From: a virus | Direction: 5' to 3' (one strand) | DNA length: 29,705 nucleotides | IMG/VR virus record: IMGVR_UViG_3300012928_000028 | Location: 1-29,705 of that record | Part shown: piece after piece, positions 2,920 to 29,673 of the stretch | Numbering within the stretch: position 1 is the first letter of the stretch | How the letters are laid out: every line of letters begins with the position of its first letter | The notes under the pieces: generated by a model | What the model was told of the DNA's origin: nothing | The model's database searches: none | Seen by the model: only the letters and a program-made list of their open reading frames with translations | Translations under genes and position numbers: made by a program

Positions 2920-2920
2920 T

Positions 2921-5030: not shown

Positions 5031-5329
5031 TGGCAAAATATTCAAACACTTCTCCGTATCATAACACAGAACAGACAGAAACTCATTTAGATTTATTCAA
5101 CCCGAGACCTATCACCGGTGACGCTGATGACATCATTTACGAGATAGATAGAATTTATGCTTATAGACCTGACCTATTAGCATTTGACTTATATGGCACT
5201 CCAAGGTTATGGTGGGTGTTTGCTCAAAGAAATCCCAACCAAATAGAAGATCCCATATACGACTTCAAACCAGGAACAGAAATAAGAATACCAAAATTAA
5301 GTAATCTGCAAAACGACTTAGGAATTTAG
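5030..5329 (+). CDS. 53: baseplate wedge subunit gp53-like
   Basis: Small (99 residues) wedge component that helps link neighbouring wedges around the hub. The diagnostic core is YRPDLLAFDLYGTPRLWWVF (residues 47-66) followed by AQRNPNQIEDPIYDFKPGTEIRIP, which matches the conserved gp53 motif with a LysM-like end. T4 gp53 is 196 residues, so this is a minimal form that keeps the core. It starts on the last base of the previous stop codon (TAATG) and is separated by one base from the hub gene, so all three are probably translationally coupled. Confidence 0.85.
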   Translation: MAKYSNTSPYHNTEQTETHLDLFNPRPITGDADDIIYEIDRIYAYRPDLLAFDLYGTPRLWWVFAQRNPNQIEDPIYDFKPGTEIRIPKLSNLQNDLGI

Positions 5330-10580: not shown

Positions 10581-10985
10581 ATGGCTGATGAAAAAAACAA
10601 CATGATAAACAGAGGAAACGCATTCAGAGGATTTAGTTCACGTTCAGAAAGAACTAATTTTAAATTGTACGATTTTGAATTAATAAAGCAGGACTTGATG
10701 AACAGATTATCTGTGAGAAAGGGCGAAAGAGTAGAAAACCCTGCATTTGGTACAATTATATACGATGCATTATTTGAGCCATTAACAGAAGCAACAAGAC
10801 AATTAATTATTGATGACGTGACTGAGCAACTTAATGCTGATCCACGTCTAGCAACAAATGAAATTATAGTAGAAGAATATGAGCATGGTATAGCAATTCA
10901 GGCCTCTTTGACCTACGTTCCGTATAATATTACCGAGAAATTAGTGTTCAAATTTGACAGAGAAAACAGTTTACGCCTATCTTAA
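10581..10985 (+). CDS. 25: baseplate wedge subunit gp25-like
   Basis: Sheath-initiator / wedge protein of contractile tails. The 134 residues match T4 gp25 (132). The conserved core is NFKLYDFELIKQDLMNRLSV, then KGERVENPAFGTIIYDALFE (residues 47-66, containing the family's E-R...P-x-F-G pattern), then helix TEATRQLIIDDVTEQL and a beta end with LTYVPYNITEKLVFKF. A good AAAGGAA ribosome binding site lies 8-9 nt before the ATG. The gene immediately precedes the late promoter of gp6; gp25 and gp6 are physical partners in T4 wedges. Confidence 0.92.
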   Translation: MADEKNNMINRGNAFRGFSSRSERTNFKLYDFELIKQDLMNRLSVRKGERVENPAFGTIIYDALFEPLTEATRQLIIDDVTEQLNADPRLATNEIIVEEYEHGIAIQASLTYVPYNITEKLVFKFDRENSLRLS

Positions 10986-11029: not shown

Positions 11030-14000
11030 ATGGCCACAAAAAGACAAAATAGATTATTAGTAGCAGAAGATTGGAGAAAAATCTACACTGCTTTTCAGAC
11101 TGCAGATTTCAAATCCTATGATTTTGAAACCATACGTAGAACTATGGTTGCATATCTACAGGAGAATTATCCAGATGATTTCAATGACTTTGTTGAGAGT
11201 TCTGAGTATATTGCTTTACTGGATTTGATAGCCTATATTGCTCAGTCATTATCATTCAGAGTAGACCTGAATGCAAGAGAAAACTTTTTAGAAACTGCAT
11301 CTAGAAGAAATTCAGTATTGCGATTAGCAAGACTTATTAATTACAATGCCGCTAGAAACAAACCAGCAGTTGGTTTGCTAAAATTTACATCAGTTTCTAC
11401 GTCAGAAAATATTAGAGATAGTGCAGGCCAAAATCTTGCAGGATTGACTGTGCGTTGGAATGATGCGGCAAATCCTAATTACAGAGAACATTTTGTCAAT
11501 ATATTAAATGGAATAAATCAGTCAAACCAAACATTCGGTAAGCCTTTAGAATCAGGAAAAGTAGGAAATATATCTACAGAAATTTACGCAACTAGGTCTA
11601 GTAACACGGATATTCCTATGTACACGTTCTCAAGACCAGTAAGTGGTATAACAAGAAAATTTGAAATTGTACCAGCAACAATTTTAAAACAGGATTACAT
11701 TTATGAAAGAATGCCTTTGCCTGGTGGATCATTTTCTTATGTTTACAGAAGTGATGGTGCAGGAGATTCATCAAACAATACAGGATTTTTTGCTTTGTTC
11801 AAAGAAGGTACTTTACAAACAGAAGAGTTTACAATTAACGATTCTGTAACAAATTTAGTACAACCTTTGAGTGCCAACAATATTAATGATTCAGATATGT
11901 GGCTATGGCAACTAGATGATTTTGGACAGCCATCTGCTTTGTGGAAACAGGTTCCAACGTTGGCAGGTAACAATGCAATTTACAATTCAATAGATGCAGG
12001 TGTAAGAAATATTTACAATGCAGTCACAAAAGCAAATGATGCCGTTGATTTAGTTTTCGGTGACGGAAACTTTGCAGATATTCCTATGGGAAGATTCAGA
12101 GCATACTATAGAACAAGTGCTAATGAAAGATACACTGTTCAGCCTGCTGATTTAAGAAATATTCAATTTAACATTGGATACATAGATAAAAATGGTGCAG
12201 GACAAACTTTGACAATAGGGGCAAGTTTGGAGCAAACACTATACAATTCTGCCCAGTCTGAGTCCAGTGCATCAATAAGAGAAAAAGCACCACAGGTATA
12301 CTATTCTCAAGATAGAATGATTACAGCGGAAGATTATAATATTGTACCTTTGAAAGCATCACAGGAAATAATAAAAATTAGATCCATCAACAGAACAGCA
12401 TCTGGTATATCTAGAGCAAAAGAAATAGTTGATCCTACAGGATCATATTCTAATGTAAATGTAATTGCAGACGATGGTATATTATATAGAGAAGAGACTT
12501 TACCTTCTTTTACTTTTACTTTCAATACTAAGAACGATATTTTAAACACATTAAACACAAAAATTGAAACAAAACTAAAACAGCCATATTCAAGGCAATT
12601 TTATTATGACAAATATGGATCAAAAGATCTTTCATTACTATCAACATCTTGGAATAGTACAACCACAAGCACAAATACGAATACAGGATATATTTTTTCA
12701 AGTGGTCCACTTGTTGTTGGCGAATTTTCAACATCAAACTTAAAATTTGTCAAACCTGGTGCATTAATTAAATTTACATCACCTGATACAAGAAAATTCA
12801 AAAACGGAAAACTTGTAGATGCATCAACAGATGAAGCACAGGATAGACAATGGGCAAAAGTGGCATCTGTGGTAGGAGACGGAGCAAACGGCGGAGTTGG
12901 AAATTTAGAATCTGGTGTGGGTCCAATTACCTTAGCAGATGTGATACCAGACAACGCAGTTGTTAAAGCAGTCATTCCACAATTAGCAACATCGTTAGGT
13001 GCAACATTAAAAGCAGACCTACAAAATAGAATTACTGCATATGAAAACTTTGCACTTAGATATGACGAAACAACAGGAACATGGAAAGTTATAACAACAA
13101 CAAATATAAGTGCAAACAATACATTTAGTTTAGGATTAGCAGGAGACACAACAGGTACTAATCTTGATCAGAGTTGGTGGTTTAATTTTGAAAACGACGG
13201 GTCTACATACACAGTCACATACAGAAAATTGGATTATATCTTTGAATCTGCTGGACAAAACAAGTTCTATTTTGATCCTCAAGAAAACATTTATGATTAC
13301 ACAACAGGGCAGACTAAAAAAGATACAATAAAATTATTGAAAAATAACACACTTGTAAGTACTGGTAATGCAGTGGGTTATCCAAACGTTTGGCAAGTTG
13401 TTGATACAATTACTGAGCAAGATGGATATCAAGATAATAGGAAAGTCAAAGTAGGATTTTTTGATTCAGACGATGATGGCGTAGTCGATAATCCAGAACT
13501 ATTCGAAATACTAGTAGAGCCTACATTAAGTGAATCAACTAAATTTGTATTTTATGAGAAGTTTATTTCAGCAGATAATAGTATTGAAAGATTCAGACCA
13601 TATGATGCAAGTAATTTTATTGTAACGCAACAAGAATCTAGTATTGTTTTGCCTGGCTCATACACAGACGGACAACTGTTTTATTTTTATGATTCTGCAG
13701 AAGATGTCATTAAAAAATATAGCAGTGCAACAAATTCATTAGTGCCAACTACAGATTACTATGCGAGAAAAGGAAGATCGTCTATAGATTTCCAATACAA
13801 ACATTTTGCAGGAAATAACACAAGGATAGATCCATCAGTATCTAATATAGTTGACATATATCTATTAGAAAGATCATATGACACATTATTTAGAAAATGG
13901 TTAAAAACTGGAGGAGAAAAACCTAAACCAAGTACTTCAGATGCTTTAAGAATCAGTTACTCGAACAAATTAAATCCAGTCAAAGGGTTATCAGACCAGA

Positions 14001-14494
14001 TCATATATCATCCAGTATCATACAAAATTTTATTTGGAACAAAATCCGAGGAAGAATATCAAGCAACATTTAAAGTTGTAAAAAATCCAGATTCGAATAT
14101 TTCGAATGCAGTGATAAAAACAATGGTAGTCGACACAATAGATCAATTTTTTGCACTAAACAATTTTGATTTTGGAGATTCATTTTACTTTACAGAATTA
14201 GCGGCACATATACATAATAGGTTAGCACCGCATTTATTAACAGTTGTTATAGTACCAAATCAAACAGGACAAGTGTTTGGATCATTATTTCAAATATCTG
14301 GAACATCAAACGAAATTTTCATTAGTGGGGCCACCGTTGATGATGTAGCAATTATTGATGCCATTGGAGCAAATCAACTTCAAGCATCAGGTACAGTTGT
14401 AACGTCAACAACCACAACGACAAAAACAGCAAGGTCAACATCAGCAGTATCAGGATCCACTACAACAGGAACAGTTAGTGGTACTGGATACTAA
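11030..14494 (+). CDS. 6: baseplate wedge subunit gp6-like, enlarged
   Basis: Core wedge protein whose ring sets the size of the baseplate. The N-terminus carries the gp6 signature: YDFETIRRTMVAYLQENYPD, DFVESSEYIALLDLIAYIAQ, then LSFRVDLNARENFLETASRR and RLARLINYNA, all within the first 110 residues. Later come VDLVFGDGNFADIPMG and YYSQDRMITAEDYNIVPLKA, typical of gp6/baseplate J proteins. At 1154 residues it is far longer than T4 gp6 (660); much of the extra length lies about 510-780. The C-terminus is a Ser/Thr-rich tail (TSTTTTTKTARSTSAVSG) ending GTVSGTGY. It is separated from the giant gene by only 2 nt. Assignment is firm; the role of the extra segments is unknown. Confidence 0.92.
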   Translation: MATKRQNRLLVAEDWRKIYTAFQTADFKSYDFETIRRTMVAYLQENYPDDFNDFVESSEYIALLDLIAYIAQSLSFRVDLNARENFLETASRRNSVLRLARLINYNAARNKPAVGLLKFTSVSTSENIRDSAGQNLAGLTVRWNDAANPNYREHFVNILNGINQSNQTFGKPLESGKVGNISTEIYATRSSNTDIPMYTFSRPVSGITRKFEIVPATILKQDYIYERMPLPGGSFSYVYRSDGAGDSSNNTGFFALFKEGTLQTEEFTINDSVTNLVQPLSANNINDSDMWLWQLDDFGQPSALWKQVPTLAGNNAIYNSIDAGVRNIYNAVTKANDAVDLVFGDGNFADIPMGRFRAYYRTSANERYTVQPADLRNIQFNIGYIDKNGAGQTLTIGASLEQTLYNSAQSESSASIREKAPQVYYSQDRMITAEDYNIVPLKASQEIIKIRSINRTASGISRAKEIVDPTGSYSNVNVIADDGILYREETLPSFTFTFNTKNDILNTLNTKIETKLKQPYSRQFYYDKYGSKDLSLLSTSWNSTTTSTNTNTGYIFSSGPLVVGEFSTSNLKFVKPGALIKFTSPDTRKFKNGKLVDASTDEAQDRQWAKVASVVGDGANGGVGNLESGVGPITLADVIPDNAVVKAVIPQLATSLGATLKADLQNRITAYENFALRYDETTGTWKVITTTNISANNTFSLGLAGDTTGTNLDQSWWFNFENDGSTYTVTYRKLDYIFESAGQNKFYFDPQENIYDYTTGQTKKDTIKLLKNNTLVSTGNAVGYPNVWQVVDTITEQDGYQDNRKVKVGFFDSDDDGVVDNPELFEILVEPTLSESTKFVFYEKFISADNSIERFRPYDASNFIVTQQESSIVLPGSYTDGQLFYFYDSAEDVIKKYSSATNSLVPTTDYYARKGRSSIDFQYKHFAGNNTRIDPSVSNIVDIYLLERSYDTLFRKWLKTGGEKPKPSTSDALRISYSNKLNPVKGLSDQIIYHPVSYKILFGTKSEEEYQATFKVVKNPDSNISNAVIKTMVVDTIDQFFALNNFDFGDSFYFTELAAHIHNRLAPHLLTVVIVPNQTGQVFGSLFQISGTSNEIFISGATVDDVAIIDAIGANQLQASGTVVTSTTTTTKTARSTSAVSGSTTTGTVSGTGY

Positions 14495-14496
14495 AG

Positions 14497-17400
14497 ATGG
14501 CAGACAATTCAATTGACAGCACAAAAAGATACGAAGTAATCACAGACAAGAACGGGCGTGAATACAGAAGAACGATTGCTCATCTACCACATTACTATAG
14601 GACAGATGCAAACGAAAAGTTTTTAAGTAGCACATTAGATCCTGCAATACAAAAAGGGAGATTAGAGAGATTAGATGGATATATTGGAAGATTAGATGCA
14701 TATACAAGATCAATATCAGACAACTATTTAGGTGCTACAACTCAAAGCAGATCGCAGTATCAGTTAGAGCCAACAGTCACTATTGCAGATATTGACACAT
14801 CATCTATAACACCAGAAGACAAAGTAAAATTTACTTCAACTTATGACGATTTTATAAATCAGTTAGGATATCTAAATGCCCCTGTCGACAATCATGATAG
14901 ACTGACCAAAGAGAGAACTTATTCGTGGAATCCCTATGTAGATCTTGATAAACTCGTGAATTTCAGAGAATACTACTGGATGCCAAATGGTCCTACAGCA
15001 ATATTAGTTGATAAGATTGCAACAGGCACAACAACAGAGATTGGTGTGTCAGTACCATATGTGGGTGTATACAGATTTACAACGCAAGAAGCAAAAGATA
15101 ATCCTGCAATTACTTTATACAGAGGAAACACGTATAAATTCAAAGTTGACGCAGTAGGACATCCATTCTGGATTATGACAGAGCCAGTATCGTCTGGATT
15201 AGCGTCTGATGGAAGTACATCTATTCTTTATACAAAAGGAGTTGTAAATGGAGGAGCAGACAAAGGTACAGTAACATTCACAGTGCCAACAGATGCACCT
15301 GATTCATTATTTTATCAGTGTGGAGTTCACGGTGCGATGCACGGAGTAATCAAAATTCAAACTGCAAAAAGCACAACAAAAATTAATGTTGCAGAAGACA
15401 TTGTAGGTGCAATTAATTACACAATGACTACTGGTACTGCTTTATCAAATGGAATGAAAATTAGATTTGGTTCCAATGTTATAGACACAAAAAATTATGC
15501 AGACAAATCTTTCTATGTAGAAGGTGTAGGTAGTAAGATTACTTTGACAGATGTAGATAATTTGATCACACCAGAAACTTATGCTACTGAAACAACTATT
15601 TTATACGACTCAGTAGGATATGATTCAAGACCATACGCAAAATCATTTTACAGACCAGACAAGCACGATTACATTACAATTAAGAGAGATTCTATTGATC
15701 AAAATGCATGGTCTAGATACAATAGATGGTTTCATAAATCTGTTATTGAAGCAACAGCAACAGCAAACGGATCTGAACTTTCTTTAGCAGAGGACGACAG
15801 AGCAAAAAGACCAATCATTGAATTTGATGCTAATCTCCAATTATTCAATTACGGATCTTTTGCAAAAAAATCAGTTGCATTAGTTGACGATGTTACAACA
15901 GATGTATTTTCATCAATGGTTAATCAAACAGGTTACTACGTTGACGGTGTAGAAGTAACAAACGGTATGAGAGTACTGTTTACTGCTGACACAGATAAAC
16001 TTGTTAGAAACAAAATATACGAAGTACAGTTTGTAAAAGTTCAAGGTTCGACTGTAATTGCTTTACAACTTGCAGAAATAGATGACACTTATCCAGTAGA
16101 CGGAGAGCAAGTATTTGTAGAATTTGGTAAAAAGAACCAAGGAAAAACTTTGCACTATTCAACAACTGCTGGACCAGACAGAAACGAAAGTAAATGGATC
16201 GAAGGTCAAAAGAAAACAAAACTTAATCAACAACCGTTATTTGATGTGTTTGATAGAAATGGAAAAAGTTTTAGCGACGACTCGGAATATTCATCTACAA
16301 ATTTTACAGGATCTGAATTATTTTCATACAAGGTATCAGAGGGTGCAACTACTGATACTGTTTTAGGTCTTAAAGTAAAATACAATACAATTAATAATGT
16401 AGGTGACTTGGTATTCGAGTCAGATGTAAACTCAGGAACCTTTAGATATAAGTCAGGTGATGATTTTATTACTCAGTCAAATTCAACTGGATTTACACAC
16501 GAAATTACAGGATTAACAACTTACAATAATAGAACAAATTGGAAAGAACGATTAACAGAATCTAAACAAAGAGTTAGAAGAACTCATTTTGTATCGGCAA
16601 CTGAAAAAAAATTATTTCCAATAGATGTTTACAAAGATTCTGCCGCATTAACTGATTTAGAAGTATCAGTAAAAGTAAACGGATCAACTAAAAAAATTGA
16701 TACAGATTACACTCTTGTTGATGGTACATCAAATAGATATGTAAAATTTAAAGAAGATTTAACAGTAAATGATATTGTTGCACTTACTTGTTGGTCTGCA
16801 TCTCCAAAAATAAAAGAAATTGGAGTATATGAAATACCAGATATTTTATCTAACAATCCATTAAACGGATCATTAGATACTTTTACTCTTGGACAAATTT
16901 CGAATCATATTACAAACGTTAGTAACAGATCAACTGATATCACTGGTACGATTCCTGGCCCAACTAATTTGAGAGACAAACCAGAGTCATTTTTAACAGG
17001 CGGCGCCTACCAGAACCATACTGGATCAATTACTTCCGCTATGTTTAATTTGATAGATAAAGAAGCAAATTTTTGTACAGCATTAGATTACGCAAATTTA
17101 GAATATCAAAAATTTAAGGAAAACTTTATCACTCAAGCAACCGGAACAGCATATGATGGTAATGTAGCAGATAGAGTAGACGAGATCCTTAAAGAAATGA
17201 CATTTAGGAAAAATTCTGCATCACCTTTCTATTATGAAGATATGTTAGGTTTTGGAACAAAAGTGTCTGAAAGAACATATACAGTTCAGGATCCATCGTC
17301 AACAGAGTATTCTATTGACAGTATATTTGATTTGACTACATTAAGTAACAGGGCAGTTTACGTCTACAAAAATGATGTACAACTAGTACACGGTACAGAT

Positions 17401-20400
17401 TATACTTTCAGCACAACAGTCGATAGTGTCAATTTTATTTCAACACTTGCTACAGGAGATATTATTAAAATAAAAGATTATTCTAATACAGAAGGAAGTT
17501 ATATTCCACCAACTCCTACAAAACTTGGAATGTATCCAAAATTTACACCGGCGCTGGAATCAGATAACACTTATAGAACTACGCAAAATGTTATAGTAGG
17601 ACATGATGGATCTCGTACCATTGCATACGGTGATTTCAGAGACGATCTATTATTAGAGTTAGAAAAAAGAATTTACAATAATATTAAATCAACATATAAC
17701 AACGATTTACTTAATATTCATACTGTACTGCCAGGAGCATTTAGTAAAAATCTGTTTACTAGAAATGAAGTTAATGGCGTAATGAGTGAAGATTTTTATG
17801 TGTGGGCAGGAAGAAACAATGTTGATTTCAGAACAAACAGTGGACACACGCCAGCAGACATTTTCACTTTCAACTATTCTGCAAGTAAAGATATAAATGG
17901 AGTAGATCAAGAGGCTGGTTACTGGAGAGGTATTTTTAATTATTACTTTGATACAGATAGACCACACACTCATCCATGGGAGATGCTAGGACATTCAGAA
18001 AAACCAAGTAAGTGGGAATCAAAATACGGACCAGGTCCATACACATCAGGTAATGAAGTATTGTGGAGTGATATTGAGAGAGGGTATGATGCAAGTACAG
18101 GACTTATCAATTCTAGATATGCAAGGCCTGGCTTGTCAAATAAAATTCCAGTAAACTCTGCAGGATCGATGGCAAATCCTGCAACTATTGTTGGATCTTT
18201 CCAAAGAGCAAATTTAAAACAACCATTCAAGTTTGGTGATCACGGACCGGCAGAAACAGCATGGAGAAGAAGTTCAAGTTTTGCTTTTGCAGTAACTAAA
18301 GCACTCGCAGTATTACAGCCTTGCAAATTTTTTGGCACTTATTTAGATCCTAGCAGATTATCAAAAAATGTTGTAGGAAATTATGTTGTCACTGAAACAG
18401 GATTAAGACAAAAATCAGCAAGTGTAAAATATCATTTGGAAACATCTACAAATAGTGAAACAGGAATAGTAACAAGATTTCAAACAGCAGGATATCAGCC
18501 TTATGCTGTAAACTATCTGATATCGCAAAATTTAGATCCCGCTATTTTTTATTATGATAAAATGAAAAATCTAAATGTTCAACTTGCATACAAGTTAGGT
18601 GGTTTTACAGATAAAGCCAATTTGAAAATTTTGACAGATTCTATTTCACCAGGATCGACTTCTGGATCTCAATTTTTACCTACAGAAAACTATAAAATAT
18701 ATTTTAGAACAAGTAATCCTATTAAAAAGTTTTATTACAGTGGAGTATTAATTGAAAAGAATTCTACAATATCAGATGATGGGTCATCTATAGCACCAGG
18801 ATACCGAGTTACTGGATACGATATTACTAATCCAATTTTCAAAATGTTCATTCCAAAAAGAAACAGCAATAATGCTGTAAAAGTTCAAGGATCTGTAAGA
18901 GCAAAAGTTTACAAAGATTATTTAGATGTAGTAGACACAGTAGTATATGGCACACTATTTGAAACACGACAAGACGTTGTTGACTTTTTACAAGGTTATG
19001 GCAAATGGCTGGAATCTGAAGGATTTAAGTTTGATAGATATTCAAAAGAAATAGGAAAAACTTTAAATTGGGACAATGCAATAGACGAATTTTTATATTG
19101 GACAACACAAGGTTGGGCGGCCGGATCTGCTATTACAGTATCTCCAGGAGCAAGTGGATTTAATTTAGAAACTAAAAATTCAGTTATAGGAAAACTTAAA
19201 AATGTTTATAACAATTATACAGTATTAGATGCAGGCGGAAGATCGATATCTGAGAGAGATATATCTGTCAAAAGAGAAGGAAATACTTTTAATATAATAT
19301 CAAAAAATGACAACATTGGAATATATGGCTTAGAATTACATTCTGTCGAAAAAGAACATATGTTAATATTTGATAATAAGACAGTGTTCAGCGATATTAT
19401 TTTTGATCCAGAAACTGGATTCAGGCAATCAAGACTAAAATTAGTAGGGTGGAAAACTGCTGATTGGAACGGAGGATTTCACTCACCTGGTTTCATGTAC
19501 GATAAAGCCGAGACAAAGTTATGGAATTCAAACACTGATTACAAAATTGGTGACACACTAGAATATCAGTCTAGATTCTATATGGCAAAAGTAAATCATA
19601 ATTCAGGTATAGAATTTGACCCATCTAAATATACAGGAATTGCAAGACCAACCTCTGAACTAATTCCAAACTTCGATTATAAAATTGCACAATTTAATGA
19701 TTTTTATGATCTCGAAACTGATAACTTTGATGCTGTACAGCAAGGTTTGGCACAGCATTTAATTGGGTACCAGTCTAGAGATTATCTGAATAATTTATTT
19801 GTAAATGACATTTCACAATATAAATTTTATCAAGGATTTATTAGGGAAAAAGGAACACAAAACGCAATTAATAAATTAGCAAGAGCAAAATTTTTAGATG
19901 AGGATATCACACTAGATGTATATCCAGAATGGATGATTAGAACAGGTGAGTTTGGAAATGTTGATGCTAAAAAATCATTACAATTTAAAATGAATGATTC
20001 TACATTTTTACATAATCCTCAGAGTGTTGAATTGTTAAGCACAACAAATGATCCAATTAACTATAACAGATCAGCAACAATTACTTCTGTTGATATGTAC
20101 GACAAACCATTAGAGTATGATGCATCAAAAAGTTTTTCTCTGTATGATTATACTAAAGCAGATACAGACAGAGAATCAGTGCAGTATTACAAAAATGCTG
20201 GATATCCGAGATTTGATGACGTACAACACACAGCATTTAAAATAGCGGATCTCTTGAACCTAGATGTTACAAGTTTATCAAATCAAGATTTAGTTTGGAT
20301 AGCAAATGATAAAAAAGGTGACTGGAACGTTTTGAGAGTTTCAAGAACGCCTATAAGGTTAGTAAAATTACAGAGCATTAACGAAGATACGCAGTTAGAA

Positions 20401-23400
20401 ATGTCATTTAACACAGGACATAATTTTGAAGTTGGAGATTACATGGTTATATCTGGATCACAAAATGCTGTTCTTAACAAGGTTTTTGAAATTAAAAAAG
20501 TATTGCCTAACAAAGTTTGTGTAGATTTTACAGAAAATTTATCTGCACTATCAACTGTAACAGATCAATCAACAGTTACTACATTTGGAGACGTCAGTAA
20601 ATTTGTAAGTGTAAGATATCCAACAATAGATGATATAAATGATAAAATCTCTTTTGATGATTATAAAGTAAAAGATGAAACAAACAATAGAGCAGGCGAT
20701 AAAGTTTTCATAGACAACGAAAGTAACTATTGGAAAGTATATGAAAGACAAGAATGGTTAAGGTACAATCAAGTTTTATCTCCTACAAGAAAAAATAATC
20801 AAGATTTTGGATGGCAGGTAGTAGCAAGGAATGACGGAAGAACAATGATTTCTTCATCACCATCAGATACACAGGGTATTTTAAATTTCTTCTTTAGAAA
20901 AGAAGCAAAACCAGGAGAACCTTTTGCTGTACTAGACACTAAAACAATGACAGAAAATAATGATAGTACAAGTAAATTAGGATATTCGCTTTCAATTAGT
21001 TCAGATGAAAACTATTTGGTAGCAGGAGCACCATTCAATAATAAAAGTATAGACGGAAGCACACATTATGATAATATGGGACTTGTAAAATGGTACAAGT
21101 GGAATACTTCAAAAATTGAATATGAATTAGGTGGTACAATTTATCCCCACTATCAACAGGACTCAACAACTTTAGCAAATTTAAATTTTGGCTGGAGTCA
21201 TGCAATAGCAGAACCTGGAGAAAATAGTTCGATAAGAACTGCTGAAAAATATCTTTTTATTGGATCACCTGGAGCAAATAGCGATGAAGGTAAAGTCCAT
21301 ATGTATAAATGGACAATAGGATCAGACGGTTCAACATTTGACACATGGACTGAAACAGTTGAAATATTTCCATCAGACGTTCACTCCGGACAAAGATTCG
21401 GACATCAAGTTGCTGTAAATGATAACGGAGATATTCTTGCAGTCAGTTCTAAATCACCAGGCAACGCAGGTAGAGTTCACATATTTAGAAGAACAAGTAA
21501 CACAAATGATGGATCAACAACTTATGATGCAAATACATGGACGGAAGTACAAACGTTCACAGGCACATCTTCCGACGGAAGTTCTTTAAACACAGCATTT
21601 GGTGATTCGATTGCTATGAGTAAAGATGGAACAGAATTAATTATTGGCGCACCTGGTACAGAAGTGCAAGACGGAAGTTCAACAACATTTAAAGATGATG
21701 CAGGGGCAGTATATTATTACAAATGGAATGCTGATGGATCAACAAACACATACACACTACAACAAACAATTACATCACCGAGTGATGTTTCAAACGTAAA
21801 ATTTGGTGCAAGAGTAAACATTAATCAGTCAGGTAGTAAAATTATTATATCGGCACAAGGTGCAGATAATCCAAGAACAATGAAGTTTGACAACGGTTCA
21901 ACCACATTTGATTTACAGGACACACAGATAATTGATGTAAACAGAGAAGCAGGTGCAGTGTTCACAGCAACAAAATATGATACAAAATATGTAATAGACG
22001 ATAGGTTGGTTAATGATAATGTATCATCAAATGACCAATTTGGTGAATCAGTCTTTATTACTGATAACAGTATATTTGTTGGAAGTCCAAATAATGATGC
22101 CGGATTAACTTCAGATGGATCAACAACATATGTGGACGATGGATCTGTTGCTCATTATGATTCGTTAAAGACAGATGCTACTCCGTGGTCATTGTTAAGA
22201 ACTGAAAGTAATTTAGTTAATGATTCGAGAATCGAGTCAGCATTTATATTTGATAGATCAACAAATAAAATTATGGATTTCATGAACTATTTTGATCCAC
22301 TTAAAAAACGTATTTTTGGTATTGCAGATAGAGAAATAAAGTATAAAACAACTTGGGATCCAGCAACATATAACTTTAATGCATTTGGAACGCAAGATTC
22401 TGAAACACCGTGGGCAGAAGAACACATAGGAGAAACTTGGTGGGATCTATCAAAAGCAAAATGGATTTGGTACGAACAGGGAGACCAGGAATACAAAACG
22501 AAAAATTGGGGTAAACTATTTCCTGGATCTGAAATTTGTATATACGAATGGATAGAGACTACATTACTTCCATCTGAATGGAATAGTTTAGCAGATACAC
22601 AGGCAGGATTAGTAGATAGAATTTCGGGTAAACCGTTGGCGATTGACGATACACAATTTACAATTAAACAAAAATATGATTCTGCAAAAGATGAATTTAT
22701 AAATTATTATTATTTTTGGGTCAAAAATTCAGTTATTGTTCCACAATTAGGCGTAAGCACTATGATCAGAACAAATTCTTGTGCATATGTCAGCAATATA
22801 ATTACGAATCCAGAAAAATCAGGATTAAGATATTTTGCAGTTTCTGATCAAAATAAATTAATTTTATGGAATATAAAAGAAACACTTTTAAATGATAATA
22901 TTGTTTTCAATATTGATTACAGAGAAAATGACAACGAAATAGACTCTCATAAAGTTTGGAAAATTTATGCTGAAGGAGATCCAGCAATTAGACCAGATGC
23001 ATCTTTAGAAAGTAAATGGTGGGATAGTTTAACAGGCACAGATAGTTTAGGTGCCACTGTACCTGATCCAAATTTACCTCTAAACAGAAGATATGGAACA
23101 GAATTAAGACCTAGACAAAGTTGGTACATTGACAGATTCACAGCATTAAAAGAACTTATAACATATTCAAACTCTGTAATGAAATCTAAACCTTTAATTG
23201 GATCTATAAATTTCACGAATTTGGATAAAGCAGATCCACAACCAACTAAAGACAGTTTAGAATGGGACGGATCAGTTGATACATATGCAGACTTGACATA
23301 TGTTAATACAAAAAATTTAAGTGGAAACGTAAATTATCTTGTTAAGGCAGACGAAACTGCGGCAGGATTTTGGTCGATATATCAATGGGACGCAGTATTA

Positions 23401-26400
23401 GGTATATGGAATAGAACAAAAATACAAACATATAAAACAAATGATTTTTGGACATATTTAGATTGGTATGATACAGGAGTAAGCAAAGACACATATATCA
23501 GTAAACAAGTTGATTTTCAATATGACCTAGACGATGTAGAATTAGATATAGGTCAGTATGCAAAAGTTGTGAAGTCTGACACCGGCGGTTGGAAAATTTA
23601 TGAGAAAATAAACACAGGTTGGAAAAATGTTGCAACTGAAAACGGAACTATTCAATTATCAGCAAAAATTTATGATTACACAATTGAAGATTCTGGATTT
23701 GAAGGTGATGACACATACGATGAAAACTTCTTTGATAGAGAACCTATTATAGAAACAAGAAATATTTTACAAGCATTGAGAGATGATATTTTTGTTGGAG
23801 ATCTAGCAAAAGAATACAATACACTCTTCTTTATTGGTTTGAGATATGTATTATCAGAACAGCCATACGTAAATTGGTTATTTAAATCTTCGTTCTTAAA
23901 CATTACAAACAGTCTAAGACCACTAAACCAAAGAAAAACATATACTACTGGAAAAGATGATTACGTGGAATCTTACATAAACGAGATTAAACCATTCCAC
24001 ACAAAAGTACGTGAGTACAAATTAAAATATACAAATGCAGAAACACACAACGGAATTAACAGTGACTTTGACTTACCGCCATTCTATGATAATAGAAATG
24101 GGAAAGTTAGACCAGTACAGCCGGGCAGTATATTAGATGAAGAATTATTAGAAGAATATCCATACAAAATGTGGAAGGACTATTACACTAAACATATTGA
24201 TTCATTAACAATTACAAATGCAGGCTCTGGTTATACAAAAACACCTACTATAAGTTTTGTTGGAGGAACAGTAGAAGATACAGGTCCGTTTACAGTGCTT
24301 GGTAGAAGTTCATCAGGCGGAAGTTCAGGGGATTATGGATATTTTTATCCTGTGTTTACATTACAATCAAATGCAAACACGTTTGACAAAAAACTTGGGG
24401 GAACAGGTAAATCTCACTCACACACTTTTGATGAATACCCAACTAGAGTGTTTTATATGCCCAACAGTCAAATTTCTAATCACGCGAAAAAGACAGATCC
24501 TGGATTGTATAAATTATTCTCTCCTGGAGTTAAAACTCATGCAACTGCAACCGCAGTGATATCTCAAGGAAAACTTACAAAAATAAATCTTATTTCCAAA
24601 GGTTCTGGATACACAACAACACCTCAAGTTATTGTGTCGGGAGGAAAAGATGATGGCTCAACACCAACAGATACAGCAAAAATTTCTGCGGTGCTCGGGA
24701 ATGATCTTGTTAGAGATTTTGATACCACAATAAAATTTGATAGAATTAAGTCGTCTTGTGTTGTAATGGATTGGGTAAAAAATACAACATATGAATATGG
24801 GACACTTATAAGACACAATAATGAGTTGTATAGAACGTCACAGCGACTAGTTACAGGTGCAGTATTCACTGACACTGGTTTAACTAAATTGCGTGGGGAT
24901 GAAAGTTTCCTTACAGCATCTGAAAGAATAAAAGGAATGTATGCACCAACAAGTGGTATGCCGGGATTAGAGTTATCACAATTAATGGACGGTATTGATT
25001 ATGGAGGTGTACAGGTAACAGGATTAGACTTCAATCGAGAACAAGGTTTTGATAAATCTCCTTGGTACGAAGAACCATGGGACGGTTATGGCAAATCAAG
25101 AATTAGAACTTTCTATGGAGATGGTAGCACAGCACAATTTATTTTTACAGATCCACCTAATCCTAAAGATGTATTCACAGTCTATCTTGATGGTGTCAGA
25201 CAGGTAAATGAAGTTCATAGAGGCGACTCTTCAACAACGTCATTTACTTTAGGATCTGCACCTGGAAATGGTGTCAAAGTAGAGTTCATACCGTTTGACG
25301 ATGATGGTGTACAAACACCTACAGATGATAGAACATTAGATTCTCTAGTATCTGGAGGATTATTTGGTTCTGCTTTAGGAATAGATCCAAATCATGTTAT
25401 TACTGACGGAGACGAATTTGTTTCTCCTGATACAAGTTATGCACCTGAAGAAGCAGTGCCTGGACAAATATTTGATACTCTTGATTTACAAGTTTATTCT
25501 GCACCAGATTCAGGAGTTCCGTTTATTGTTGAAAAGAATTATGTGTGTGACGGATCACAAACAACTTTTGATATTGGACAAAAACCTGGAACACAGGCGG
25601 CAGTATCAGTGATTGTGAACAATGTTACAAAAAGAATTACAACCGATTACACAGTAGACACTCAAGCAGAAACAATTACATTTGGATCAGCACCAGCGTC
25701 TGGACAAAGATTAACAATTAAAAGTTTTGCAATATCAGGATCTCAATACATGGTGTTGAATGATTTTATAGGTGACGGATCAACAACTGTTTTCAAAACA
25801 GGTACAAGAGAAAATTTTGCTCCGGATAGTTCATTATCACAACTTTATGTAACTATCGACGGAATACCTACATCGGCATTTACAACGAGTTCAACTGCAA
25901 ATACATTAACACTTACATTCAGTTCAGCACCTGCGTCGGGCAAAGCAATTCAGATAGCAGGTTTCAACCAAACAGTAGGACAGGGTCGAGCATATGCTGA
26001 AATAAGACAAGACTCAATCACATATGCTTCAGGAACTAATAGATATACTTTAACTTATCCTGTTGGAACTTTTGGACCGTTTGCTGGACTAACAATACTA
26101 GAACATGGAGGAAAAGTATTGAGAGGACCAGACAACACTTACTACGCAGGAGATGGATCAACATATGCATTTGGAGTTGTAGCAGGTCTATCAGATGACT
26201 CAACAGTAGATCCGGCAAAAACAATTACACTTGCCAGTGAGATCGAAGTATATGTAAACGGCACTCAGCAAGGCTTGAATACAGATTACACAATTGACTT
26301 TGGTAACCAGCAAATTAATTTTATGACTGCTCCTGCAGATACAGATGTAATTGCAATTACTACGAATGTAGATACTCATTACACATATGTTGGTAATGAT

Positions 26401-27411
26401 ATTATATTAAAACCATCTGCATTATCATCAGACGGTATTACAATTAATAACAATGATAAAATTAAAGCAACAACTTTCAACAATGCTTTAGGAATGAAAG
26501 CAAGACGTGAAGTGTTAGAAGGAAGAATATCTGGAGAACATAAATTATACAACACGCCTTTGAATTCTAACTTTGTTTATGTTTGGTTCAACAGCCAACC
26601 ACTGCAACAAGGGTTTGATTACACAGTGACCGAAAATGTTATTAAGATATCAGGTAGAACAATTACGTCAGCAGATAGAGTAGATGTATTGTACTTTACA
26701 GTACCGTCATCGACTAAACAAACAGGATTTAGATTATTTAAAGATATGTTGAATAGACAATTCTACAAAAGAATTGCTAAAACTGGTACAACAACACTTG
26801 CACAAGATATCAAAGACGGAGATTCTACAATCACAGTCGCTGACGGTTCTGTGCTAGGTGATGCAGACGGCACTACTCAATTGCCGGGTGTAATTTTTAT
26901 TGATAAAGAGAGAATAGAATTTTTCCAAAAGTCAGGTAACGTGTTATCTCAAATTAGACGAGGTACACTTGGAACAGGAATTAAGGCTCATATTGGCGGA
27001 ACAAAAGTGGTAGATGCCAGCGGTAAGAGTACCGTGCCTTATAGTGATACAATATACACCAACACTTTTATTAGTGATGGTTCAACAGTATCATTTGCCA
27101 CTACAATTACTCCGTCCGTCGCTCCAGCAGGACCTTACGCAGGTAAGCCTGATCTCGACATATTCATTGGTGGCCAACGATTGTTGTGGGAGAGCGAGGA
27201 CGGAAGTACTGTAAACTTTAGTGTGAGTGGAAGCAACGTTGTACTGTCAAAACCAGTACCAGCAAATCAACAAATTAAAATATTAATGAAGAAAGGTCAA
27301 GTATGGTATACGAAAGGCTCGAGCACAGCGTCAGATGGTAAAGGATTAAACCAGTCTACGACTACTGCGGCTAGATTCATAGCGGAAGAGCCAACAAATG
27401 CACCAGAATAA
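14497..27411 (+). CDS. giant multidomain virion/baseplate protein in the gp7 position
   Basis: A single intact 4304-residue frame with no stop, over 40% of the window. It follows gp6 as gp7 does in T4 (1032 residues), so a peripheral baseplate/tail role is inferred, but I see no sequence match to gp7. The N-terminus (RRTIAHLPHYYRTDANEKFL, then WNPYVDLDKLVNFREYYWMP) is of a type I associate with large marine phage structural proteins. Recognisable modules in order: cupredoxin-like (189-288), DYT-type beta domains (about 700-780 and 930-1010), a Trp/Gly carbohydrate-binding-like module at about 1676, a seven-bladed FG-GAP-like propeller (2104-2576), two GSGY segments (3236-3383) with a second Trp module at about 3426, and a C-terminal chain of GDGST-headed beta domains including an IRRGTLGTGI module (about 4150). 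No signal peptide or membrane segment is seen. Adsorption or glycan contact is plausible but unproven. Confidence 0.8.
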   Translation: MADNSIDSTKRYEVITDKNGREYRRTIAHLPHYYRTDANEKFLSSTLDPAIQKGRLERLDGYIGRLDAYTRSISDNYLGATTQSRSQYQLEPTVTIADIDTSSITPEDKVKFTSTYDDFINQLGYLNAPVDNHDRLTKERTYSWNPYVDLDKLVNFREYYWMPNGPTAILVDKIATGTTTEIGVSVPYVGVYRFTTQEAKDNPAITLYRGNTYKFKVDAVGHPFWIMTEPVSSGLASDGSTSILYTKGVVNGGADKGTVTFTVPTDAPDSLFYQCGVHGAMHGVIKIQTAKSTTKINVAEDIVGAINYTMTTGTALSNGMKIRFGSNVIDTKNYADKSFYVEGVGSKITLTDVDNLITPETYATETTILYDSVGYDSRPYAKSFYRPDKHDYITIKRDSIDQNAWSRYNRWFHKSVIEATATANGSELSLAEDDRAKRPIIEFDANLQLFNYGSFAKKSVALVDDVTTDVFSSMVNQTGYYVDGVEVTNGMRVLFTADTDKLVRNKIYEVQFVKVQGSTVIALQLAEIDDTYPVDGEQVFVEFGKKNQGKTLHYSTTAGPDRNESKWIEGQKKTKLNQQPLFDVFDRNGKSFSDDSEYSSTNFTGSELFSYKVSEGATTDTVLGLKVKYNTINNVGDLVFESDVNSGTFRYKSGDDFITQSNSTGFTHEITGLTTYNNRTNWKERLTESKQRVRRTHFVSATEKKLFPIDVYKDSAALTDLEVSVKVNGSTKKIDTDYTLVDGTSNRYVKFKEDLTVNDIVALTCWSASPKIKEIGVYEIPDILSNNPLNGSLDTFTLGQISNHITNVSNRSTDITGTIPGPTNLRDKPESFLTGGAYQNHTGSITSAMFNLIDKEANFCTALDYANLEYQKFKENFITQATGTAYDGNVADRVDEILKEMTFRKNSASPFYYEDMLGFGTKVSERTYTVQDPSSTEYSIDSIFDLTTLSNRAVYVYKNDVQLVHGTDYTFSTTVDSVNFISTLATGDIIKIKDYSNTEGSYIPPTPTKLGMYPKFTPALESDNTYRTTQNVIVGHDGSRTIAYGDFRDDLLLELEKRIYNNIKSTYNNDLLNIHTVLPGAFSKNLFTRNEVNGVMSEDFYVWAGRNNVDFRTNSGHTPADIFTFNYSASKDINGVDQEAGYWRGIFNYYFDTDRPHTHPWEMLGHSEKPSKWESKYGPGPYTSGNEVLWSDIERGYDASTGLINSRYARPGLSNKIPVNSAGSMANPATIVGSFQRANLKQPFKFGDHGPAETAWRRSSSFAFAVTKALAVLQPCKFFGTYLDPSRLSKNVVGNYVVTETGLRQKSASVKYHLETSTNSETGIVTRFQTAGYQPYAVNYLISQNLDPAIFYYDKMKNLNVQLAYKLGGFTDKANLKILTDSISPGSTSGSQFLPTENYKIYFRTSNPIKKFYYSGVLIEKNSTISDDGSSIAPGYRVTGYDITNPIFKMFIPKRNSNNAVKVQGSVRAKVYKDYLDVVDTVVYGTLFETRQDVVDFLQGYGKWLESEGFKFDRYSKEIGKTLNWDNAIDEFLYWTTQGWAAGSAITVSPGASGFNLETKNSVIGKLKNVYNNYTVLDAGGRSISERDISVKREGNTFNIISKNDNIGIYGLELHSVEKEHMLIFDNKTVFSDIIFDPETGFRQSRLKLVGWKTADWNGGFHSPGFMYDKAETKLWNSNTDYKIGDTLEYQSRFYMAKVNHNSGIEFDPSKYTGIARPTSELIPNFDYKIAQFNDFYDLETDNFDAVQQGLAQHLIGYQSRDYLNNLFVNDISQYKFYQGFIREKGTQNAINKLARAKFLDEDITLDVYPEWMIRTGEFGNVDAKKSLQFKMNDSTFLHNPQSVELLSTTNDPINYNRSATITSVDMYDKPLEYDASKSFSLYDYTKADTDRESVQYYKNAGYPRFDDVQHTAFKIADLLNLDVTSLSNQDLVWIANDKKGDWNVLRVSRTPIRLVKLQSINEDTQLEMSFNTGHNFEVGDYMVISGSQNAVLNKVFEIKKVLPNKVCVDFTENLSALSTVTDQSTVTTFGDVSKFVSVRYPTIDDINDKISFDDYKVKDETNNRAGDKVFIDNESNYWKVYERQEWLRYNQVLSPTRKNNQDFGWQVVARNDGRTMISSSPSDTQGILNFFFRKEAKPGEPFAVLDTKTMTENNDSTSKLGYSLSISSDENYLVAGAPFNNKSIDGSTHYDNMGLVKWYKWNTSKIEYELGGTIYPHYQQDSTTLANLNFGWSHAIAEPGENSSIRTAEKYLFIGSPGANSDEGKVHMYKWTIGSDGSTFDTWTETVEIFPSDVHSGQRFGHQVAVNDNGDILAVSSKSPGNAGRVHIFRRTSNTNDGSTTYDANTWTEVQTFTGTSSDGSSLNTAFGDSIAMSKDGTELIIGAPGTEVQDGSSTTFKDDAGAVYYYKWNADGSTNTYTLQQTITSPSDVSNVKFGARVNINQSGSKIIISAQGADNPRTMKFDNGSTTFDLQDTQIIDVNREAGAVFTATKYDTKYVIDDRLVNDNVSSNDQFGESVFITDNSIFVGSPNNDAGLTSDGSTTYVDDGSVAHYDSLKTDATPWSLLRTESNLVNDSRIESAFIFDRSTNKIMDFMNYFDPLKKRIFGIADREIKYKTTWDPATYNFNAFGTQDSETPWAEEHIGETWWDLSKAKWIWYEQGDQEYKTKNWGKLFPGSEICIYEWIETTLLPSEWNSLADTQAGLVDRISGKPLAIDDTQFTIKQKYDSAKDEFINYYYFWVKNSVIVPQLGVSTMIRTNSCAYVSNIITNPEKSGLRYFAVSDQNKLILWNIKETLLNDNIVFNIDYRENDNEIDSHKVWKIYAEGDPAIRPDASLESKWWDSLTGTDSLGATVPDPNLPLNRRYGTELRPRQSWYIDRFTALKELITYSNSVMKSKPLIGSINFTNLDKADPQPTKDSLEWDGSVDTYADLTYVNTKNLSGNVNYLVKADETAAGFWSIYQWDAVLGIWNRTKIQTYKTNDFWTYLDWYDTGVSKDTYISKQVDFQYDLDDVELDIGQYAKVVKSDTGGWKIYEKINTGWKNVATENGTIQLSAKIYDYTIEDSGFEGDDTYDENFFDREPIIETRNILQALRDDIFVGDLAKEYNTLFFIGLRYVLSEQPYVNWLFKSSFLNITNSLRPLNQRKTYTTGKDDYVESYINEIKPFHTKVREYKLKYTNAETHNGINSDFDLPPFYDNRNGKVRPVQPGSILDEELLEEYPYKMWKDYYTKHIDSLTITNAGSGYTKTPTISFVGGTVEDTGPFTVLGRSSSGGSSGDYGYFYPVFTLQSNANTFDKKLGGTGKSHSHTFDEYPTRVFYMPNSQISNHAKKTDPGLYKLFSPGVKTHATATAVISQGKLTKINLISKGSGYTTTPQVIVSGGKDDGSTPTDTAKISAVLGNDLVRDFDTTIKFDRIKSSCVVMDWVKNTTYEYGTLIRHNNELYRTSQRLVTGAVFTDTGLTKLRGDESFLTASERIKGMYAPTSGMPGLELSQLMDGIDYGGVQVTGLDFNREQGFDKSPWYEEPWDGYGKSRIRTFYGDGSTAQFIFTDPPNPKDVFTVYLDGVRQVNEVHRGDSSTTSFTLGSAPGNGVKVEFIPFDDDGVQTPTDDRTLDSLVSGGLFGSALGIDPNHVITDGDEFVSPDTSYAPEEAVPGQIFDTLDLQVYSAPDSGVPFIVEKNYVCDGSQTTFDIGQKPGTQAAVSVIVNNVTKRITTDYTVDTQAETITFGSAPASGQRLTIKSFAISGSQYMVLNDFIGDGSTTVFKTGTRENFAPDSSLSQLYVTIDGIPTSAFTTSSTANTLTLTFSSAPASGKAIQIAGFNQTVGQGRAYAEIRQDSITYASGTNRYTLTYPVGTFGPFAGLTILEHGGKVLRGPDNTYYAGDGSTYAFGVVAGLSDDSTVDPAKTITLASEIEVYVNGTQQGLNTDYTIDFGNQQINFMTAPADTDVIAITTNVDTHYTYVGNDIILKPSALSSDGITINNNDKIKATTFNNALGMKARREVLEGRISGEHKLYNTPLNSNFVYVWFNSQPLQQGFDYTVTENVIKISGRTITSADRVDVLYFTVPSSTKQTGFRLFKDMLNRQFYKRIAKTGTTTLAQDIKDGDSTITVADGSVLGDADGTTQLPGVIFIDKERIEFFQKSGNVLSQIRRGTLGTGIKAHIGGTKVVDASGKSTVPYSDTIYTNTFISDGSTVSFATTITPSVAPAGPYAGKPDLDIFIGGQRLLWESEDGSTVNFSVSGSNVVLSKPVPANQQIKILMKKGQVWYTKGSSTASDGKGLNQSTTTAARFIAEEPTNAPE
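15061..15360 (+). other. cupredoxin-like (type 1 copper-like) module in the giant protein
   Basis: Residues 189-288 have the outline of a plastocyanin-like beta-barrel. TLYRGNTYKFKVDAVGHPFW holds His222, and the end carries FYQCGVHGAMHGVIKI with Cys275, His278 and Met281. In type 1 copper proteins the ligands are an upstream His plus a C-terminal Cys, His and Met, so the set is present, with Cys-x2-His-x2-Met spacing. Whether copper is bound cannot be told from sequence; the fold may be kept only as a scaffold. Confidence 0.6.
19522..19605 (+). other. Trp/Gly carbohydrate-binding-like module (first copy)
   Basis: From residue 1676 the protein reads WNSNTDYKIGDTLEYQSRFY followed by MAKVNHNSG. 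The order W..(x)..Y..GD...Y....(Y/F)Y.A is that of CBM5/12-type chitin/cellulose-binding modules. A second, similar stretch, DWVKNTTYEYGTLIRHNNEL, begins near residue 3425 (24769). The match is to a short pattern only. Confidence 0.4.
20806..22224 (+). repeat. seven FG-GAP/integrin-like beta-propeller blades in the giant protein
   Basis: Seven segments begin with FG or LG plus a beta strand and continue to a (I/V)(I/V/S)(G/S)(A/S)P-like strand: FGWQVVARNDG (residue 2104), LGYSLSISSDEN (2161), FGWSHAIAEPGE (2231), FGHQVAVNDNG (2301), FGDSIAMSKDG (2368), FGARVNINQSG (2436) and FGESVFITDN (2515). Spacing is 57-79 residues, right for propeller blades. LVAGAP, LFIGSP, LAVSSK, LIIGAP, IIISAQ and IFVGSP occur at matching places, and YKW or FRR strands follow several of them. 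Confidence 0.7.
24202..24645 (+). repeat. two GSGY beta segments in the giant protein
   Basis: Residues 3236-3257 (SLTITNAGSGYTKTPTISF...) and 3359-3383 (KLTKINLISKGSGYTTTPQV...) share the pattern (L/I)T-x-(I/L)-x(3-4)-GSGY-T-x-TP-x(I/V)-x(I/V)-x-GG. This looks like a duplicated short beta module; the insert between the copies includes a His-rich stretch (GKSHSHTFDE). Confidence 0.6.
25117..27390 (+). repeat. tandem GDGST-headed beta domains at the C-terminus of the giant protein
   Basis: Five divergent copies start with (G/C/S)DGS(T/Q) followed by an aromatic position: YGDGSTAQF (DNA 25114), VCDGSQTTF (25543), IGDGSTTVF (25768), AGDGSTYAF (26146) and ISDGSTVSF (27070). Most continue with a (V/I)x(V/I)DG or VNG turn, a DYT strand and a final (F)xxAPxxGxx(I/V)xI strand. 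A headless copy (26515-26700) and the QIRRGTLGTGI module (about 26810-27040) lie between. Related DYT domains occur near 16590 and 17300. Confidence 0.65.
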
Positions 27412-27420: not shown

Positions 27421-28149
27421 ATGATACAAGAACCCAAAAAAGAAGATAACAAAGAAAAAGATGAAAAAACGCCTAATGATGAGAACGGCGTTATGATGTC
27501 TGGTCATATTAAAATATTTGATCCTGAGACAGGCGAAGTAATGGTTGATAAAAGAAATGCTATCCATTATGAAAATATGTCACAGGCTTTAGCGAATTCG
27601 TTAGCGAATAAATCAAACGGATTTATTCATGAGATGGCGTTTGGTAATGGTGGAACATCTGTCGATCCAACAGGAGTAATAACTTATCTTACGCCTAACT
27701 CAACAGGAACAAACTCAAAATTATACGCAAAAACTTATTATAAAGTAATTGACGATAATTCAGCAACAAACAAAGACACAACAAGAAACAAAATGGAAGT
27801 TAGACACACAGCAGGAAACAAATACACAGATATAGTTGTTACTTGCACATTAGATTATGGAGAACCAACAGGACAAGCGGCTTTCGATAACACAACAAAC
27901 TTCAATGATAACTTTGTATTTGATGAACTAGGTTTAGTGTCTTGGGAAGGTACAGAGGACGGAACAACTAATAAATTATTGACACACGTAATTTTCCACC
28001 CTGTGCAAAAATCATTAAACAGATTAATACAGATTGATTACACTTTGAGAATACAATCATTAACAACGTTCACTGAAACAAGTTCTACAGCGGCAAGTAC
28101 AAGTAATATAGTAAGTGGAACTACTTCAGGTGGTAACACAGGATATTAA
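27421..28149 (+). CDS. virion structural protein of unknown role (tail/baseplate)
   Basis: A 242-residue protein that I recognise only as a kind found in marine T4-like tail modules; it does not look like T4 gp8. The first 24 residues are Lys/Glu/Asp-rich and probably disordered. The conserved part starts at MMSGHIKIFDPETGEVMVDK (residues 25-44), then NAIHYENMSQALANSLANKS, FIHEMAFGNGGTSVDPTGV and a beta-rich half with FDELGLVSW and QIDYTLRIQSL. No Shine-Dalgarno precedes the first ATG, so a start at Met25 or Met26 (27493 or 27496) is possible. The C-terminus is a Ser/Thr-rich tail ending SGGNTGY, recalling the end of gp6. It lies 9 nt after the giant gene and 3 nt before the fibre-like gene. 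Confidence 0.7.
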   Translation: MIQEPKKEDNKEKDEKTPNDENGVMMSGHIKIFDPETGEVMVDKRNAIHYENMSQALANSLANKSNGFIHEMAFGNGGTSVDPTGVITYLTPNSTGTNSKLYAKTYYKVIDDNSATNKDTTRNKMEVRHTAGNKYTDIVVTCTLDYGEPTGQAAFDNTTNFNDNFVFDELGLVSWEGTEDGTTNKLLTHVIFHPVQKSLNRLIQIDYTLRIQSLTTFTETSSTAASTSNIVSGTTSGGNTGY

Positions 28150-28152
28150 TAA

Positions 28153-29673
28153 ATGGCGTATACTGTAAACAAAACTAATGGGGCGGCATCAGTCTCCCAA
28201 TACATTGTACAAGATTCTGTATTAAATTCTGAAACAGATTTAAAATTTGTAGGTAAAGGTTATTCAGGTTACGGCGAAACTATTGCAGAAAACTTTTTAC
28301 ACTTATTAGAAAATTTTTCAAATACATCAGCACCAACAAAGCCGATTAAGGGACAACTTTGGTATGACGAAACAAATCAAAGATTAAAAGTTTACTCTGG
28401 TGCAACATTCCAACCATTAGGTGGAGCGTCTTATCAATCAACGCAACCATCTATTGCGTCATCGGGAGATATTTGGATTGATTCTGACACAGACCAGTTG
28501 TATTTTTACAATGGTTCAACAATGGTTCTGGTAGGTCCAGAATCATCTAGTACAAGTGGATTTACATTTCCAAGTATTACAGATTCAAGTGATGCTGTAC
28601 AGAAAGTTACACAAATTAAAAATAATTCAAGTTTAGTTGCACTAATATATGATGGAACTACATCATTTACTCCTAAGACTGCAATTACAGGATTCCCAAC
28701 AGTACACCCTGGTATAACTTTAACAACTGCAATCTCAGGAGTTAAGTTACACGGCACGGCAACAAATGCTGATGCATTAGGCGGAAGTTCCGCGGCAAAC
28801 TTTTTAACATCGAACGCGGCTGACACAATGACAGGTAGATTGACATTGGATACCGACAATGGTATCTTCATAGGAGATCAATCAGAATTACAAATTACAG
28901 TTTCAAACAATGATGTACTTGTAGATCAAACTGCACAAGATAAAGACATTATTGTTAAAGCAAATGTATCAGGTTCGACAACAGAGATGTTAAGGATCGA
29001 TGGATCAACTGGCAGAATTGGAATCAAACAGACAGTACCTACTACTGAATTAGATGTTGTTGGAACAGTTAAAGCAACAGCATTCCAAGGAAACATCACT
29101 GGTAATGTAACAGGAAATATTACAGGTACAGCAAGTATATCAACAACATCTACAATTACAGCAGACAATACTACAAATGCGGCAAGATTTATTCCATTTG
29201 TAAGTGCCGCGACAGGTAACTTAGGATTGTCTACAGATACAAATCTATCTTATAATCCAGCAACAAATATTTTAAACACAACTGCAACAAAGGCTCAATA
29301 TGCTGACTTGGCTGAGATTTATGAATCGGATTCTACGTATGATGTAGGAACAGTTGTTATATTTGGCGGAGACAAAGAAATTACACAATCAACGATATCA
29401 AATGACACAAGAGTAGCAGGCGTTATTAGTGAAAATCCTGCTTACTTAATGAATGGTGATGCAGAAGGCCAAGCAGTTGCTCTTGTAGGAAAAGTTAAAT
29501 GTAAAGTACACGGAATAGTATCAAAAGGTGATCTTTTAACTACTTGCGGAACACATCCAGGTTGTGCCCAAAAGGCAATAAGTCCTGTATTAGGTTCTAT
29601 CGTAGGAAAAGCAATGGAAAATAAAGACACAGCAGAAGAAAGTGTCATTTTAATAAGTGTAGGAAGGTTATAA
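28153..29673 (+). CDS. tail-fibre-like protein with GQLWYD and C-terminal 'DLAEIYE' domain
   Basis: A 506-residue probable fibre or fibre-attachment protein. The N-terminus has GKGYSGYGETIAENFLHLLE (about 36-55) and then two related WYD/WID-type motifs, IKGQLWYDETNQRLKVYSG and SGDIWIDSDTDQLYFYNGS. The middle has a T4-fibre-like repeat, NADALGGSSAANFLTSNAAD followed by TMTGRLTLD, and a short GNITGNVTGNITGTA repeat. The C-terminal domain (385-506) runs from DLAEIYESDSTYDVGTVVIF to the last residues ISVGRL, with DTRVAGVISENPAYLMN, VKCKVHGIVSKGDLL and three cysteines; this domain is common at the ends of marine phage fibre proteins. I see no catalytic motif. Upstream spacing is 3 nt, and a late promoter overlaps its stop codon. 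Which T4 fibre protein it replaces is not clear. Confidence 0.75.
   Translation: MAYTVNKTNGAASVSQYIVQDSVLNSETDLKFVGKGYSGYGETIAENFLHLLENFSNTSAPTKPIKGQLWYDETNQRLKVYSGATFQPLGGASYQSTQPSIASSGDIWIDSDTDQLYFYNGSTMVLVGPESSSTSGFTFPSITDSSDAVQKVTQIKNNSSLVALIYDGTTSFTPKTAITGFPTVHPGITLTTAISGVKLHGTATNADALGGSSAANFLTSNAADTMTGRLTLDTDNGIFIGDQSELQITVSNNDVLVDQTAQDKDIIVKANVSGSTTEMLRIDGSTGRIGIKQTVPTTELDVVGTVKATAFQGNITGNVTGNITGTASISTTSTITADNTTNAARFIPFVSAATGNLGLSTDTNLSYNPATNILNTTATKAQYADLAEIYESDSTYDVGTVVIFGGDKEITQSTISNDTRVAGVISENPAYLMNGDAEGQAVALVGKVKCKVHGIVSKGDLLTTCGTHPGCAQKAISPVLGSIVGKAMENKDTAEESVILISVGRL

Follow-up and report, generated by a model that had tools for sequence, protein, structure and literature searches.

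A probable gp7-type baseplate wedge protein enlarged by domain accretion in a jumbo-type myovirus

Gp7-type wedge proteins and the family of giants

In phage T4, six gp7 chains link gp6 with the peripheral proteins gp8, gp9 and gp10; during contraction they swing outwards (PMC3004832). In gp7-type proteins, the trifurcation domain packs with two gp6 chains, in a (gp6)2-gp7 architecture (PMC6300606, PMC10457771). T4 gp7 has 1032 aa and is encoded in the slot after gp6, as the first-pass annotation of the present locus had stated. Much larger proteins are on record in cyanophages: the 7312-aa "baseplate wedge initiator" of P-SSM4 is listed as the largest bacterial-virus protein (PMC8553790), B23 has an annotated T4-like gp7 of 2845 aa, and a 6198-aa giant of S-ShM2 carries the gp7 motif. 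For the giants of jumbo phages, no published structure is known to us.

The window, a 29.7-kb IMG/VR fragment from an aquatic phage, carries gp46-, gp47- and gp55-like genes on the minus strand and, beyond them, genes for a structural protein, a gp53-like protein, another structural protein, gp5, gp25, gp6, the giant protein, a PHROG 11259 protein and a fibre-like protein, in this order. The gene names are profile matches; that of gp53 rests on PHROG 7145, position and PF11246 matches at the corresponding place in relatives. The main genes of the locus are as follows:

5030..5329, plus strand: gp53-like wedge protein (PHROG 7145; profile match, PF11246 at this place in relatives)
8128..10566, plus strand: gp5-like hub protein (profile match)
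10581..10985, plus strand: gp25 wedge protein (profile match)
11030..14494, plus strand: gp6 baseplate wedge protein, 1154 aa, the expected partner of the giant (profile match)
14497..27411, plus strand: giant wedge protein of probable gp7 type, 4304 aa, member of PHROG 10938 (frame, profile match, relatives)
27421..28149, plus strand: PHROG 11259 protein, downstream of the giant (profile match)
28153..29673, plus strand: 506-aa protein with weak fibre-type matches (profile match)

The giant (480.5 kDa) is encoded by a single open frame that starts with ATG, has no internal stop and is separated from the end of gp6 by 2 nt. The frame is taken as real because close relatives (~51-59% identical over the query slice, about 4200-4340 aa) have the same length and begin between a 1-nt overlap and 2 nt past gp6; the earlier description of an intact 12.9-kb frame directly behind gp6 thus holds on re-reading. 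The gene occupies the gp7 place in the gp25-gp6-gp7 order. The gp6 of the window is likewise enlarged, with 1154 aa vs 660 aa in T4.

A profile search identifies a match to PHROG 10938 along the protein, with E = 0 and 1134.8 bits. Homologous giants of jumbo phages span 3138-4449 aa and are encoded directly after gp6 or a gene in the gp6 position, namely in Cassandra/PA5oct (3857 aa), RaK2 (ORF070, 3326 aa), Atu_ph07 (4449 aa), SCTP-2 (3807 aa), Vibrio 2.275.O (3771 aa), 121Q (gp582, 3323 aa), XacN1 (3313 aa) and RAS14 (3138 aa). They share with the window giant the size class of 3.1-4.4 thousand aa and, by tblastn and pairwise alignment, two colinear cores (residues ~25-1990 and ~2567-3240), at just 24-32% identity. 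One IMG/VR scan finds at least 577 relatives, among which 80 loci were kept; the gp6-giant junction is readable in 77 of these, with a spacing of about -1 to +30 nt in 76 and of 215 nt in L053. Given that this gene order recurs across jumbo phages and IMG/VR loci, the giant is ordinary for its group of jumbo phages. The unusual baseplate design envisaged in the first-pass annotation is therefore not upheld: the same giant follows gp6 across a large jumbo-phage family, and larger cyanophage gp7 proteins exist. Giant gp7 proteins are already annotated in cyanophages, and the protein is most likely of a known kind and represents no new design.

Virion mass spectrometry of phAPEC6 detected gp245 (381.88 kDa, 17 unique peptides) and the "baseplate wedge" protein gp244 (131.18 kDa), and 121Q is a very close relative of this phage (PMC7247149). 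The calculated masses in 121Q are 381.87 kDa for the giant and 131.21 kDa for gp6. The inclusion of phAPEC6 gp245 among the PHROG 10938 giants rests on this matching mass and on gene order. Absence of the protein from virions had been named as evidence against a wedge role; in phAPEC6, virions do contain a family member of matching mass.

Two motifs of a probable gp7 core

Gp7-type proteins are characterized by a helical segment and a trifurcation domain (T4 Pfam domains). For each of them, a profile was made from sequences of T4-like phages, phiM12, HTVC008M, Moby, Desulfovibrio phage 7757 and cyanophages and run blind over an alignment of jumbo giants with 45 rows. With the trifurcation profile, all overlapping slices around residues 1771-1815 score 27 and the best slice elsewhere 16.9; when these columns are shuffled 400 times, 0/400 come as high, the maximum being 20.6. 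The helical profile scores 24 around residue 1494, with shuffles at or below 16.3 (again 0/400 as high) and every other slice lower. Decoy slices from the gp5 and gp6 families and from two more families of the neighbourhood remain at or below 17.2. The positions in the window are:

18934..19131, plus strand: gp7-type helical segment, residues ~1480-1545, with VVDFLQGYGKWLES at 1494 (profile scans)
19807..19941, plus strand: gp7-type trifurcation motif, residues ~1771-1815, FYQGFIREKGTQNAINKLARAKF, a KGT helix pair (profile scans)

The trifurcation motif reads ISQYKFYQGFIREKGTQNAINKLARAKF and is predicted by AF2, at low confidence, as helix-KGT-helix. The hhalign probability is ~40-45% per motif, and per-sequence HMM scores are weak. 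The helical match alone, with scores of ~22-24, is not decisive because an unrelated test with the gp6 N-terminus also topped its shuffles in one slice (22 vs 17). The helical core for which the first-pass annotation proposed to search slices of the protein is thus found at the profile level, together with the trifurcation motif and in the T4 order. T4 gp7 has the same slot after gp6 and the same succession of N-terminal domains, helical segment and trifurcation motif, and the gp7 proteins of phiM12, HTVC008M and Moby likewise combine this slot with a helical segment followed by a trifurcation motif. The window giant differs from T4 gp7 in being 4.2 times longer, in lacking matches to the Pfam Gp7 domains and in not being followed by a gp8 gene.

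The Pfam models Gp7_helical, Gp7_5th and Gp7_6th (PF21428, PF21427, PF21456) all match T4 gp7 and none matches the giant; PF23786 is a weak test that misses T4 gp7 as well, and hhalign of 300-residue slices against one long gp7 profile proved too insensitive. A PDB sequence search with the giant yields nothing meaningful. T4 gp7 is not among the Foldseek matches of the model in PDB or BFVD, the trifurcation part of the model being of low confidence; the PDB search picked out an inserted chitin-binding-type CBM5/12 module, and the BFVD search mainly other giant phage proteins, e.g., that of Atu_ph07. A 750-aa viral protein outside the giant class, A0A2Z5HGI1 in BFVD, matches the gp7-core model with an E-value of 1e-11 over 176 columns and, on this modelled similarity, may be a compact relative of the giant or a split annotation. 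Residues 25-160, considered as a gp7- or gp6-like core for their LPxxYRTD...YIG pattern, find no profile support.

A separate gp7 homologue elsewhere in the genome had been named as the observation that would speak against the assignment. In seven complete jumbo genomes, the trifurcation model, which detects two held-out cyanophages at 1e-19 and 1e-22, finds no separate gp7 core of the T4 type; it also misses the diverged motif of the giants themselves, so that the exclusion applies to T4-type gp7 proteins and does not extend to diverged forms.

Parallels exist with the giants of the cyanophages P-SSM4, S-ShM2, P-SSM2 and B23, in which the gp7 core motif likewise lies in the giant right after gp6, with inserted modules between the helical and trifurcation parts and GSGY-type stretches as in the window. 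In contrast, their gp7 core is near the N-terminus, gp8 is a separate following gene, and there is no detectable overall homology to the window giant outside the modules: when homology along the whole giant was sought, only the cupredoxin-like module (in cyanophage gp9) and the GSGY stretches matched. In S-ShM2, the protein annotated as "gp7 baseplate wedge initiator" (SShM2_094, L008:32940-34661) contains a YHYH domain and a weak esterase match, and the gp7 motif is found instead in the 6198-aa giant encoded immediately upstream; the gp7 label on SShM2_094 is therefore doubtful.

Conserved core and inserted modules

Comparison of the giants distinguishes blocks that are always present from modules that come and go:

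14569..14976, plus strand: N-terminal conserved core block, residues 25-160 (64/64 near-full giants)
15064..15372, plus strand: inserted cupredoxin-like module, residues 190-292 (copper-type residues, shared with cyanophage gp9)
17494..18396, plus strand: most conserved central core block, residues 1000-1300 (64/64 near-full giants)
19522..19611, plus strand: inserted CBM5/12 chitin-binding-type module, residues 1676-1705 (Pfam, Foldseek)
21094..22176, plus strand: inserted FG-GAP repeats, probable propeller, residues ~2200-2560 (Pfam)
22195..24216, plus strand: C-terminal conserved core, residues 2567-3240 (AF2, pLDDT 79)
24208..24696, plus strand: GSGY stretch, variable, residues 3238-3400 (comparison of giants)
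25474..25776, plus strand: GDGST or DUF2460/T7-tail-like module, variable, residues 3660-3760 (sub-cut-off Pfam match)

The core blocks at residues 25-160, 1000-1300 and 2600-2850 are present in all 64 near-full giants, among which the cupredoxin-like module is found in 56, FG-GAP in 54, CBM5/12 in 53, GSGY in 49 and GDGST in 40; five cultured jumbo phages that were tested have none of the five modules. Judged from sequence, these modules are insertions around a fixed colinear core. The mosaic composition read from the letters alone is confirmed: Pfam supports three FG-GAP_2 repeats (8.3e-14) and CBM_5_12 (30.1 bits, above the cut-off), whereas the GDGST domains match below the cut-off only, GSGY is thin in the window giant (two copies) and the cupredoxin-like domain (residues ~190-292) gives a weak azurin match (E 0.07). 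CBM5/12 sits between the two gp7 motifs, where S-ShM2 gp7 also has a long insertion (residues ~70-640).

The cupredoxin-like module, which is common to the C-terminus of cyanophage gp9, has H222, C275, H278 and M281 in a type-1 copper arrangement, kept in most copies of the module; 15064-15372 may accordingly encode a metal site in a tail protein. The region 22174-24246 (C-terminal core) is predicted with good confidence (pLDDT 79) and has no fold match in PDB, including to gp8 or gp10, to which it had been compared as a candidate.

Peripheral wedge and proposed architecture

The slot, the two ordered motifs, the absence of another T4-type core in the complete genomes examined and the variability of the modules around a fixed core support the identification of the giant as a gp7-type wedge protein that has grown by the accretion of domains in a jumbo-type myovirus. 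We put the probability of this reading, the first of two alternatives offered by the first-pass annotation, at about 0.75.

The other alternative, that one polypeptide of ~4,000 residues per wedge replaces gp7 together with the peripheral gp8, gp9 and gp10, appears unlikely; in this reading, the gp7 core would come from the giant, whose jumbo-specific arms would take on the platform and fibre-attachment work done by separate proteins in T4. The Pfam models of gp8 (PF09215) and gp9/10 (PF07880) have no match in five complete jumbo genomes, in four of which gp53 (PF11246) is found; gp8 follows gp7 in T4, phiM12 and B23 but, by profile match of the two downstream genes in the window, does not directly follow the giant; the giant has large conserved regions without a recognised fold to offer for such roles, and it shares the cupredoxin-like module with cyanophage gp9. 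However, no gp8-, gp9- or gp10-like domain is recognised by sequence or fold in the giant segments tested, a profile that stays silent in a diverged genome does not prove absence (phiM12, too, is missed by PF07880), and the missing proteins could be the products of the downstream genes 27421-28149 and 28153-29673. The silence of the gp8 and gp9/10 models in the five genomes therefore allows a peripheral takeover by the giant but does not demonstrate it. If true, a single modular arm would have taken the place of the T4 peripheral wedge in this jumbo-phage branch.

That the giant is not gp7 but an external adhesin- or fibre-like appendage encoded beside gp6 by chance is improbable: its many adhesin-type modules, the missing Foldseek match to the gp7 fold and the weak per-sequence gp7 HMM scores are compatible with such a role, but the gp6-giant order is kept across very distant phages, the two gp7 motifs occur in the right order and above all shuffles, complete genomes have no other T4-type gp7 core, and the modules are dispensable whereas the core is universal.

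Under the preferred gp7 reading, the core (~1480-1545 helical, ~1771-1815 trifurcation) would pair with two copies of gp6, the product of the adjacent gene, to form a (gp6)2-gp7 wedge scaffold, presumably six per baseplate. The conserved jumbo-specific arms (the N-terminal ~1480 residues and 2567-3240) are probably located at the baseplate periphery; by analogy with T4, they would extend outwards to that periphery from a core holding the gp6 dimer. The lineage-specific modules on the arms are likely to serve in binding to glycans of the envelope or to other tail proteins, or else to stiffen the arms.

Most records of the family give hypothetical or virion structural protein, and PHROGs files it under head and packaging. 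The present analysis provides a testable function, that of a gp7-type wedge scaffold with its core at ~1480-1815, for a large family of giant virion proteins, and points to the gp7 position as one at which surface-binding modules of unrelated kinds build up.
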